NCBI GenBank assembly: GCA_017861285.1
Contig: JAGFXO010000002.1
Span: 1-48,883 of the forward strand
Length of the DNA stretch: 48,883 nucleotides
Reading direction: 5' to 3'
DNA from: Geobacteraceae bacterium
GTDB taxonomy: Bacteria; Desulfobacterota; Desulfuromonadia; Geobacterales; Geobacteraceae
The notes beneath the pieces were generated by a model that was not told the DNA's origin, did not search any database, and saw nothing but the letters and a program-made list of their open reading frames with translations. Shown piece after piece: positions 21,112 through 25,099 of this stretch (positions are counted from its first letter, which is position 1; every line of letters starts with the position of its first letter). The position numbers and the translations under genes are program-made.

Positions 21112-23091
21112 TCACCAGATGTAGTCCCGTGCATTGTTTCTCTTGTCATTCCCGAAAAGAACATGGAAGATCCGTATCTTTTTCAGCTTCACCGGGGACA
21201 GGCTGCCCAGGGGGATATGGACAATGCTCTTCCCGAGACGGGCGGCAAGCTGCTTCAGGAAGCTGCGCGGCGGTCGCTGTGCAACATACACCACATGTTT
21301 TTCCCGAGAATAATCGAGGGCCGCAACGAGGAGCAGCTCCGCCTTGCCGCGCGCAAACCGGTAATCCGCGTCCTGCCAGACATCCTGCATCCGGCGGGGT
21401 GGAAAGGAGAGCATCAGTCCGCCGTATTCGCATCGCGTGATACCCGGACCGACGATGTTGTCCGTGGGAACAGTCGCATAGAAGGCCATATCCGACTCCT
21501 GTTCATGCTCACCGAGCCAGGTCATCAGGTATGGGAATTTTTTCATCTCCCTGTCTTCGTCGAATATGACCACCACGCTGCCAACTCCGCCTTTCACGCG
21601 CTGGTTTTCCCGCACATAGATCTTGCCCTCATGGATGTTGCGCAGCGTTTCCCGCATGTCGATGCCATCCAGCATGGAACTGGTGAATTCCGCCACCCGA
21701 CTGTGCTCCTCGGAAAGCTGCTTCGCACCCTTTCTGCGGAGGAATCTGCCATAGTCCTCAATGACTAGGTCTTCCGGCGGATACGAACAGATGGAAGGAT
21801 TATCGAAACCTTCCAGCCACTCACCCGGACGGGATTCACGTTTTCTCTTCAAAAACTGGAGATGGGACAACCCCTTTTCCTTCCGTCTGGTTTTTGGCCG
21901 AAACCGGATTTTCCGGCTTCCACCCCGGAGGTCCTCGGGGGAAAGGCGAACTGTCGGAATCTCGGCAGTCTCCTGCTGCCAGGGATAAAATGTCGCCAGA
22001 CGGTAAAATGCGTAGGCAAAATTGTCGTCGACACACCCGCGCGCCGCCGCCAGCATCTGGTAAAGGTCGGGAAGGAGCATGCCGGAAGTCAGGGCATAAT
22101 TGCGTGAAAAACGAAAAAACGAACGCTTCTGCCAGAGATGGACGGGTTCTCCGGTTTCCTGTTTATAGTGGGATGAAGATTCCTGAAAGAGTCTCAGGAT
22201 GATCCGTTGCCGGTCGGCGCTCTCACCTTGCTTTCCCACATGGTGAGCGCTCCTCAGTATTGCATTACGCAGAATCTCCTCTTCAGGAATATCCTGTTTG
22301 CCGCCCGTGATGAGTTCGAAGGCGTGAAAACTCCTGCGCATGGAATTCCTTTCCCGTACCGGTTCCGGGGGAAGTGTGCGACGCCTGGTTTCGTAAACCG
22401 CCGAAAGGAAGGGAAATTCACCGAGCACTTCCCGGCATGAATCGGGGTGGAGATTGACCAGCCGGATGTTGCTCCGCCTGGTCCGCTCCAGTGGCGGCAC
22501 CTGCAGGCGGGTACATTGCTCCTTGATCCTTTCCAGGTGGGACATACCCGTAACGAAAAGGACCCTTTCATGCTGTTCCGCGAGCTGCCGCACCCGATAC
22601 GCCATGCCCTGCTCGCGGTGCACGTCATGCCGTCCGGGAGAATCATCCCGGCGGCTTTTCAGATATTCATCATAATAAACCTTGAGCCCGATTCTTTGGA
22701 CGGCATAGGAATCGGGGAGCATTTCCTCGTGAGATGGGTAATCGTCCAGATCCACATCGACGCAATGGAGGGGGATATTCCTATCCAGAGAAAGCCTTGC
22801 GGCCTCCACCAACGGGTCAGCCGGTTCGATGATCAGATAGACCGTCTGCGGAGCCTCATTCCTAGTATGGGAAACCGGGGAGACGTGATAGGTAAGAACC
22901 GAAATCTGCGGCAGCCTTTCGATTCCCCTCATAAAAACAGCGTGCAGTGTGGCGGGGAGCTCGATGGCGATGCAGTCGGGATTAACCCGATCAACCGCCT
23001 TCCGCACCAGGGAGGCGAACTCCATACGGTAATGGAGAACGGGGAGGGCGTAGACGTTGCCGAATTTTTCGAGATGGAGTTTATGGGGCAT
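21112..23091 (-). CDS. Large TraB/PrgY-like protein of unknown function
   Basis: 659 residues. The first 210 resemble the TraB/PrgY (TIKI-like) fold: IAIELPA (41-47), a hydrophobic strand ISVLTYHV, a region LSLDRNIPLHCVDVDL, and VLFVTGMSHLERI (177-189) with the conserved histidine after the last strand. The remaining 450 residues are basic, have no membrane segment and were not assigned to a family; a strand-rich block near the end (VVVIFDED, MLSFPPRRM, HVVYVAQRP) may be a second domain. The start lacks a clear ribosome-binding site. It lies 140 bases downstream of hepT in a minus-strand cluster led by a MoxR ATPase. Confidence 0.7.
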   Translation of the reverse strand: MPHKLHLEKFGNVYALPVLHYRMEFASLVRKAVDRVNPDCIAIELPATLHAVFMRGIERLPQISVLTYHVSPVSHTRNEAPQTVYLIIEPADPLVEAARLSLDRNIPLHCVDVDLDDYPSHEEMLPDSYAVQRIGLKVYYDEYLKSRRDDSPGRHDVHREQGMAYRVRQLAEQHERVLFVTGMSHLERIKEQCTRLQVPPLERTRRSNIRLVNLHPDSCREVLGEFPFLSAVYETRRRTLPPEPVRERNSMRRSFHAFELITGGKQDIPEEEILRNAILRSAHHVGKQGESADRQRIILRLFQESSSHYKQETGEPVHLWQKRSFFRFSRNYALTSGMLLPDLYQMLAAARGCVDDNFAYAFYRLATFYPWQQETAEIPTVRLSPEDLRGGSRKIRFRPKTRRKEKGLSHLQFLKRKRESRPGEWLEGFDNPSICSYPPEDLVIEDYGRFLRRKGAKQLSEEHSRVAEFTSSMLDGIDMRETLRNIHEGKIYVRENQRVKGGVGSVVVIFDEDREMKKFPYLMTWLGEHEQESDMAFYATVPTDNIVGPGITRCEYGGLMLSFPPRRMQDVWQDADYRFARGKAELLLVAALDYSREKHVVYVAQRPPRSFLKQLAARLGKSIVHIPLGSLSPVKLKKIRIFHVLFGNDKRNNARDYIW

Positions 23092-23231
23092 GGTTTATTC
23101 TAAATGATTCCCAACCGAGTCCTCGATATTTTCTTGAGGAGCACCGCATTCACCACTTCAGGTAATGCAGCGTCTTTTCCAACTGAGACCGGCGCATTCA
23201 TGAAAGAGAACAACTCGCAGAATTTTTGAAT

Positions 23232-23660
23232 TCACTCCCGGGGTCCACCGCAAAATTCCTTCACGATACAGTCCACAAACAGCAGAAGGTCATCGAGCCG
23301 GTTCTCGATGACATCTATCATAAGCCTGATATCCAGCCGCTGATACTCGTGGACCAGCACGTACCTTAACCCTATCATCCCTTGCAAGCGGCCCGCAAGG
23401 TCTTTGGGGATGATGTGATTTTCCTCCAGCAGCCGGAAACTCTCTTTGCTCTCATTGGGAAGACCGAGTTTTCGCACCCGTATGGTATGGTTCGCCAGGT
23501 CGATGCATTGCTCGCAGGCGCGCTGCAGGTTCAGGGCGATCGCATCCTGCTTCAGGTAATCTTCCTCAAACGGCAAATCACCGGGTAGCCCGTAATAGGT
23601 CCTGACCTGCTTCACACAGCGTTCAATGCTCTCTTTCTTGTTCAGGACGATATCGTTCAT
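23232..23660 (-). CDS. hepT: HepT-like toxin (DUF86)
   Basis: An all-helical 142-residue HEPN protein. The RX4-6Y active-site motif is present as Arg99 to Tyr106 (RYVLVHEY), with His104 inside. In characterised pairs HepT is an RNase inactivated when the MntA partner AMPylates the motif tyrosine. The ATG overlaps the mntA stop codon (ATGA), so the pair is translationally coupled. Confidence 0.9.
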   Translation of the reverse strand: MNDIVLNKKESIERCVKQVRTYYGLPGDLPFEEDYLKQDAIALNLQRACEQCIDLANHTIRVRKLGLPNESKESFRLLEENHIIPKDLAGRLQGMIGLRYVLVHEYQRLDIRLMIDVIENRLDDLLLFVDCIVKEFCGGPRE

Positions 23661-24070
23661 ACTTGATGGAACCTCCCGCCGGCCAAAGCCTCTTCCACAA
23701 TCTCCGCCCGTTCCTCGTTGAGTTTCTGGTATCGGGAGAGGGTCAGCATTTCGAACTCATCCGCGGCATACTCGTCCCCTGTATAAATTCGCAGATCCGC
23801 GGCGATCACCTCTTTCTGCAACACAGTCGAGACCTGACGCAAATTAATCAGGTCCACATCCCTGTTCAGCAGTGATTCCAGAGCGAAACGAAGCTCGCTC
23901 ATTGCGAGTGAAGCGGCTTTCACCGATTCGCCAGGCAGAAGCAGCAGGGCGATGTCCGCATCACTCTCCGGCCGTTCATCCTCAGTGCCGTAGGTACCGA
24001 AAAGATAAACCGCCTGCGCATCGGGGTAGTGCTCCAATACCTTTTGAATAATTGCGTCCCCTTTTATCAT
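23657..24070 (-). CDS. mntA: MntA-like nucleotidyltransferase antitoxin
   Basis: A minimal nucleotidyltransferase of 137 residues from ATG 24070, which has GGGAG 5 bases upstream; in-frame starts further upstream lack this. The active-site signature GS-x10-DxD appears as GT-x10-DAD (Gly25, Thr26, Asp37, Asp39), so serine is replaced by threonine. In known systems this enzyme AMPylates HepT and neutralises it. The pair lies between a MoxR ATPase gene and the TraB-like gene, all on the minus strand. Confidence 0.88.
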   Translation of the reverse strand: MIKGDAIIQKVLEHYPDAQAVYLFGTYGTEDERPESDADIALLLLPGESVKAASLAMSELRFALESLLNRDVDLINLRQVSTVLQKEVIAADLRIYTGDEYAADEFEMLTLSRYQKLNEERAEIVEEALAGGRFHQV

Positions 24071-24283
24071 TAAGTCTCCCATTAACCCTTGCACCGGCAA
24101 AACTGCCCGGTTCCGGTATTAGTTGTCGTTTTCCCGGACCACGTCTTGCATCCCGCGTCCATGACCATAACCTCTTTAATACACCAGGCGATGGTCGGAT
24201 ACAAGGTGAGAAAGCTCCCATCCCCCCTCACGGCGCCAGCAGGAAATCGAAATCCTCCTTTGACAGCGTAAAGACTGTTACTA

Positions 24284-25099
24284 CTACAGATATTCCAGCG
24301 CCTCATCCCCGAGCACCCTGGTAACGGCGAGCAAGAGCAGTTCCTCCGCAGGCCTTCCGGTCGCTTTCATCATTTTCAGGGCATAGCGGGCGACATTGAT
24401 GCCGTCACGCACCGAATAGAGCTCATCGGCGGCATGCGCCCTCTGGAGGAAATCGACCACATACCGGAGAATGGCGGCATCCGCAAAAGGCAGGTTTTCC
24501 TTGAGAATCAGCAGTTCCTCGTCGGCTTCGGGAAAATCGATGTATATCTGCGGCTGGAGACGTGAATGAATGTATTCCGGCACCTCGAAGGTCGATGCAT
24601 CCTCGTTCATGGTCACCACCACGCGAAAATCCCGGTGGGCCGGTATCTTCAGGCCGGTAATGACGGATTCGACGTAGCGGCGGTCATCGAGAAGCGGGGC
24701 GAGCGACGCCCACGATTTTTCGCTCATCCGGTTGCCTTCATCGATGATCAGCGCCCCTCCCTTTATCATCGCCGTGACCAGGGAGGAGGCGGCATACTGG
24801 ATCCTGTTTTCGGGGCCGATCACCGGGGTGATGATGAGATCTTCCGGGCGGGTATCCATGGTGGCCTGAAAAAGATAGACATCCCGGCCAAGCTTCTTTG
24901 CCGCCGCATAGGCGAGGGTGGTCTTGCCGACGCCCGGTTTGCCGATAAGGCGCGGGTTGAAGGGCATATCACGCTCATCTATCACCATCCAGGCCGCAAG
25001 CAGTTGCTGCAATATTTCCTCCTGGCCGATCCATTTCAGGGAAAGTTCCACCGGGTGAGCAAGGGAGAGCGCTATGCCGTTTATCGTTATCCGTTCCAT
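24284..25099 (-). CDS. MoxR-family AAA+ ATPase
   Basis: 271 residues from ATG 25099, chosen because GGAGG lies 5 bases upstream; the open frame extends further but without such a signal. Walker A is GKPGVGKTT (53-61), Walker B GALIIDEGNR (115-124), sensor 1 VVVTMNED, and an arginine-finger region HSRLQ follows. MoxR ATPases usually work with a VWA-domain protein on a client. No VWA gene is adjacent: the next recognised gene downstream, after about 210 bases, is mntA. The context suggests a chaperone-like or conflict-system role. Confidence 0.9.
   Translation of the reverse strand: MERITINGIALSLAHPVELSLKWIGQEEILQQLLAAWMVIDERDMPFNPRLIGKPGVGKTTLAYAAAKKLGRDVYLFQATMDTRPEDLIITPVIGPENRIQYAASSLVTAMIKGGALIIDEGNRMSEKSWASLAPLLDDRRYVESVITGLKIPAHRDFRVVVTMNEDASTFEVPEYIHSRLQPQIYIDFPEADEELLILKENLPFADAAILRYVVDFLQRAHAADELYSVRDGINVARYALKMMKATGRPAEELLLLAVTRVLGDEALEYL

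Follow-up and report, generated by a model that had tools for sequence, protein, structure and literature searches.

The MoxR-type ATPase encoded in the window (the whole 48,883-nucleotide stretch of DNA analysed here) and the 659-amino-acid protein encoded downstream of it form a genuine two-gene unit, conserved, inherited and lost together and strongly purified by selection, and the MntA-HepT toxin-antitoxin pair that separates them is a passing insertion that does not belong to the MoxR system. We consider it fairly probable that the ATPase and the 659-amino-acid protein make up a dedicated two-component AAA+ machine without a VWA co-chaperone, likely serving the housekeeping maturation or activation of a client. 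MoxR ATPases are generally discussed as needing a VWA co-chaperone. A tightly co-inherited MoxR pair with another kind of partner, found in complete genomes where VWA_CoxE, VWA_2 and VWA proteins go undetected, would break this rule and would offer a clean setting in which to study the function of the co-chaperone.

The sequence-only reading of this DNA had described four minus-strand genes lying together, and all four open reading frames were found where it had placed them (Table 1). They are flanked by selB on the plus strand and by hemH-hemE-ahbD upstream, and a search of the region for RNA families returned none. The MoxR protein belongs to the AAA+ ATPases by its AAA_5 match together with Walker A, Walker B, sensor 1 and arginine-finger segments, and four stretches of it (GKPGVGKT of Walker A, LILDEGN of Walker B, TMNED and HSRLQ) vary little or not at all among 25 orthologues. 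Across the order Geobacterales, identity reaches 77-86% for MoxR and 61-73% for the 659-amino-acid protein, levels at which the cluster is not a chance assembly. The genes for MntA and HepT overlap by 4 bases, and the MntA reading frame more likely starts at an ATG near 24070 than at 24100. Both proteins exceed their equivalog cut-offs and the RYVLVHEY segment read in HepT fits the RX4HXY motif, which identifies them as a type VII toxin-antitoxin pair.

Table 1. Features of the locus, in window coordinates, and sites in related contigs, given by contig
Feature	Position	Strand	Basis or remark
MoxR-type AAA+ ATPase, 271 aa	24284..25099	-	AAA_5 64.8 bits (cut-off 22); ATG at 25099; first gene of the pair
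Inserted stretch with MntA-HepT, between MoxR and the 659-aa gene	23092..24283	-	L027 and L028, the nearest relatives, have gaps of just 12 and 43 bp here
MntA antitoxin (adenylyltransferase), passenger	23657..24100	-	NCBIfam NF047752 95.7 bits (equivalog cut-off 60)
HepT toxin (HEPN RNase), passenger	23232..23660	-	NCBIfam NF047751 136.6 bits (equivalog cut-off 60)
659-aa TraB/DUF5682-N-like protein, dedicated MoxR partner	21112..23091	-	Conserved in 103 of the 141 Geobacterales genomes and in dozens from other parts of the phylum
N-terminal ~245 residues, probable TraB/TIKI-like domain distantly akin to DUF5682 (YehM)	22357..23091	-	hhalign; H20, E24, E44, G182xxH185
C-terminal ~240 residues (420-659), unassigned domain	21115..21834	-	Alignment, entropy; best-conserved part
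Phage-junction and stray 3'-end sites	L159:1362-4583; L070:125-2500; L075:428-517; L058:8468-8662		

The link between the MoxR gene and the TraB-like gene, proposed in the sequence-only reading, holds in a neighbourhood survey of homologues, where the relatives of the 659-amino-acid protein do lie near MoxR genes. In the 62 loci with both genes in reach the two are always on the same strand, separated by no more than 300 bp in 54 and overlapping in 22; the remaining eight, the window included, have longer stretches between them. Most relatives within Geobacterales, and 34 of 38 core-form loci beyond it, have MoxR immediately upstream of the large gene, often overlapping it. The 659-amino-acid protein has full-length or nearly full-length relatives in the majority of Geobacterales genomes and in dozens of genomes from other families of Desulfobacterota; in other orders sampled from the same class none was found except two weak TraB-like matches. 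Where MoxR is not near its partner it is still kept, at another place in the genome (G011, G012, G031, G033, G253, G290 and G325). Clustering of neighbouring genes identified no conserved third gene, only lineage-specific neighbours such as ruvABC/yebC, and the surroundings of the core form are ordinary (selB, hemH or ruvABC, depending on lineage) and show no association with defence genes.

The space between the MoxR and TraB-like genes accepts varied cargo. A pseudopilin-like and a sensor-like gene are found there in L040 and L042, and an SNF2 helicase with a weak SWIM match in G008 (L032:9454-12951). The latter was considered as a yehQ-like component and rejected, being a helicase and present in one genome only. 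The pair also occurs on a plasmid and a viral contig: it is present on the Neochlamydia plasmid pS13, where an AAA ATPase is annotated 5 bp upstream of the partner and a TtcA-family tRNA thiolation gene adjoins (L160:8118-11821), and on one viral contig both genes stand beside a phage integrase. In both viral contigs recovered, phage sequence begins just 3' of the TraB-like gene, the integrase of L159 lying 169 bp past its stop codon, and G204, G507, G004 and G001 carry stray copies of its final ~30 codons. The 3' end of the TraB-like gene may serve as an integration site; a duplicated gene end was looked for inside the two viral contigs and not found.

Among 141 genomes of the order, 102 carry both genes, three the partner only, three MoxR only and about 33 neither, as tallied by hand, so that only six are discordant (Fisher p about 3e-25, uncorrected for relatedness). 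The partner occurs without MoxR in G004, G191 and G211, the last being a fragment at a contig edge, and MoxR without the partner in G018, where it contains an in-frame TGA, and in the incomplete assemblies G627 and G637. Five genera (g1, g14, g17, g18 and g27) include both genomes with the pair and genomes without it, which points to several joint losses. One such loss is seen in the sister species and congener of the window's genome (G001), where hemH and selB now enclose neither gene and all that is left of the large one is its final 29 codons. About a quarter of the order lacks the pair, among them species whose genera otherwise carry it, so it is not essential. Participation in a shared pathway without contact could also explain such co-inheritance.

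The MoxR orthologues of G018 and G088 (L180:8083-8898 and L077:8551-9363) both have the in-frame TGA at a position where an invariant tryptophan is expected, which may be decay, an assembly error or something else. Decay following loss of the partner was considered for G018 and dropped, and its TGA was excluded as evidence, because G088 has a similar TGA with an intact partner. Downstream of MoxR in G018 (L180:9092-17427), an XRE-peptidase/PIN-like pair and apparent restriction-modification genes, as read from the sequence, take the place of the TraB-like gene.

The pair evolves slowly, mostly vertically and under strong purifying selection, with dN/dS between 0.01 and 0.13 (ranges 0.04-0.13 and 0.01-0.08). 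Protein distances of MoxR and its partner are closely correlated (Mantel r 0.92, 0 of 2000 permutations), and the tree of the large protein requires 20 changes of family label, compared with a minimum of 18 and a mean of 42.8 after shuffling. Genuine conflict systems are marked by variable architecture, variable sequence, lateral transfer and patchy presence (Kaur et al., PMC7159879). Set against these marks, the pair is variable in neither architecture nor sequence, its lateral transfer is rare and its presence is patchy only in part, a mode of evolution unlike that of an arms-race system. The proposal that the window locus is itself a conflict system is therefore not upheld, given this slow and mostly vertical evolution, the constant architecture and the ordinary neighbours.

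The absence of a VWA gene, noted in the sequence-only reading, was confirmed: the MoxR cluster of the window contains none, and so the vWA gene beside MoxR that characterizes the MoxR-vWA ternary conflict systems is missing here. No match to PF05762, PF13519 or PF00092 turned up in three single-contig genomes that carry the pair (G028, G541 and G341). In a set of 41 genomes with both genes, VWA_CoxE and VWA_2 matches are located away from the pair, except for one within 10 kb (in G019, on the opposite strand); the single PF00092 match in the genome to which the window belongs lies on a different contig. Judged by these three Pfam models, outside which a VWA protein would be missed, no VWA gene appears to belong to the pair.

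The toxin-antitoxin pair had been proposed to occupy the position of the VWA gene and to guard the system, and this part of the earlier interpretation finds no support. Apart from the intact copy in the window, the only MntA-HepT beside the large gene is a truncated remnant in G626, which consists of the end of MntA and the 34 initial codons of HepT and lies directly upstream of an intact partner gene; the other loci examined have neither a toxin-antitoxin pair at MoxR or its partner nor a VWA gene. A decayed module next to an intact pair counts against a guarding role, and on this and on the comparison of neighbourhoods we reject MntA-HepT as a replacement for the VWA component or as a guard. 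Of 138 genomes of the order, 39 contain HepT relatives, most of them distant, and the close homologues (65-76%) are found at unrelated places. MntA-HepT would be a mobile toxin-antitoxin module that probably landed by chance between MoxR and its partner.

The TraB/PrgY-like character ascribed to the N-terminus of the 659-amino-acid protein finds support in profile comparisons, and its C-terminal part, left without assignment before, has none still. Searched against NCBIfam, PADLOC and PHROGs, the whole protein gives no match; it also has none to TraB/PrgY/gumN (PF01963, cut-off 26.8) and scores 9.9 bits against DUF5682 (PF18934, a model of ~727 positions), below the cut-off of 26. The relatives L124 and L125 exceed that cut-off (27.7 and 31.3 bits), only over about the first 80 model positions, and another relative, L070, reaches 14.7 bits against PF01963. 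Residues 14-221 align with residues 5-241 of E. coli YehM (hhalign probability 88%, E 2.8e-6), and on this basis the N-terminal third (residues 1-245) appears to be distantly related to DUF5682/TraB. In 28 diverse members H20, E24, E44 and G182xxH185 do not vary. These catalytic-like residues are lost in the lineages f52 (L149, L150) and f79 (L151, L152), which keep MoxR and the C-terminal motifs, so one mechanism may not fit all members. The C-terminal 240 residues have an alignment entropy of 0.66 bits, compared with about 1.05 bits for the rest, and contain the motifs ICS[YF]PPED (ICSYPPED in the window), DGxDxRET, TWxGEHxQESDMAFYxT and GPGI. Strikingly conserved as it is, this domain falls outside every family tested in Pfam, NCBIfam, PHROGs and PDB, and PDB profile searches with the whole, N-terminal and C-terminal alignments gave nothing significant. 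Two AlphaFold2 models, built from only 3-4 sequences each, reached pLDDT values of 32 and 39, with a short alternating helix-strand stretch near the end of the protein as the only better part (pLDDT 52-68).

A diverged paralogous pair was found in two of roughly 500 genomes sampled, G193 (L071) and G371 (L154), the former of which carries the core form as well. Its large protein is longer (about 785 amino acids), 21-23% identical to that of the window, and its gene overlaps a MoxR gene of its own and is followed by a TPR gene. A profile made from the two paralogues alone recovers the core form (E 1e-9 to 5e-20), so both forms are homologous. One set of island neighbours consists of a cyclic-phosphate receiver protein and a DUF4062-NTPase-TPR protein, and a second set of RyR-AAA, ThsB-type TIR, SLOG and TIR-NB-ARC-TIR proteins. 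Because this pair sits in defence islands (TIR, NB-ARC, DUF4062-NTPase), the idea of conflict has merit for the paralogous branch, and it is plausible that the conflict reading suits that branch and not the window locus. Just upstream of the diverged pair in L071 (positions 263-1849) lies a tandemly duplicated HEPN/MNT-like gene pair with identical proteins.

How the core pair works can be envisaged as follows. The MoxR ring would use ATP hydrolysis to remodel either the 659-amino-acid protein or a client that this protein holds, the part of adaptor, filled by VWA proteins for other MoxR ATPases, would fall to the N-terminal TraB/DUF5682-like domain, and the C-terminal domain with its nearly invariant polar motifs could be the output module, enzymatic or binding a ligand or cofactor. 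Physical interaction, client and chemistry are in this scheme inferred, and the role of the pair would most likely be a housekeeping one, a maturation or activation step of a client. An ATP-dependent protease-like pair, with the N-terminus an active metallo-hydrolase and MoxR its unfoldase or activator, seems unlikely to us: the invariant N-terminal residues are compatible with the metal-dependent TIKI/TraB superfamily, but they are lost in the two lineages named above, and the C-terminus is better conserved than the N-terminus.

Two defensive readings each appear less likely still. The pair could limit phages or plasmids while behaving as a slow-evolving, vertically inherited core gene, with the toxin-antitoxin pair incidental; the paralogues in defence islands and the patchy loss within some genera would fit, but the core form keeps ordinary company without defence genes, and we regard this explanation as rather improbable. 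Least credible, at a very low probability, is an anti-invader conflict system guarded by MntA-HepT in place of the VWA component. Although the diverged pair with its TPR gene in two defence islands, the HEPN/MNT-type genes near L071 and the MoxR-DUF5682-VWA-SWIM composition of E. coli yehLMPQ speak for it, the restriction of MntA-HepT to the window and one truncated remnant beside an intact partner gene, its close homologues at unrelated places, the other loci without VWA or toxin-antitoxin genes, the constant architecture, the low dN/dS and the mostly vertical tree all speak against it. We thus favour the dedicated two-component machine. More tentatively, a MoxR machine with an obligate TraB/DUF5682-N partner that bears a new C-terminal domain and is not a VWA protein might serve a core process in Desulfobacterota, a diverged MoxR-TraB-TPR module having been recruited to TIR/NB-ARC islands. 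The rare paralogous pair drawn into these islands would then show how such a pair turns to immunity.

Several known systems resemble the locus in part. The MntA-HepT module matches the type VII toxin-antitoxin system (PMC7641770) in its equivalog-level scores and overlapping genes, and its landing site is its sole unusual feature in the window. The MoxR-vWA ternary conflict systems (PMC7159879) likewise combine a MoxR ATPase with a multidomain partner, and the paralogous branch sits in defence islands; the window pair, however, lacks a vWA protein, a VMAP, iSTAND, FtsH or beta-propeller component and a variable effector, and the main paper on those systems never mentions TraB or DUF5682. In E. 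coli K-12 yehL-yehM-yehP-yehQ (MoxR, DUF5682, VWA, SWIM), as in the pair described here, the MoxR gene immediately precedes that of a large protein, and the N-terminal domains of the two large proteins are related. The VWA and SWIM genes that then follow yehM are missing from the window pair, and the C-terminal two thirds of the 659-amino-acid protein are not detectably related to YehM. The literature consulted on the function of DUF5682 or yehLMPQ offered nothing informative; since yehL precedes yehM, the pairing of MoxR with DUF5682-N is wider than either system. Finally, in RavA-ViaA, NorQ-NorD and other MoxR-VWA chaperone pairs, MoxR and a dedicated partner likewise form a slow-evolving two-gene unit, although the partner in the window is, by the models tested, not a VWA protein.
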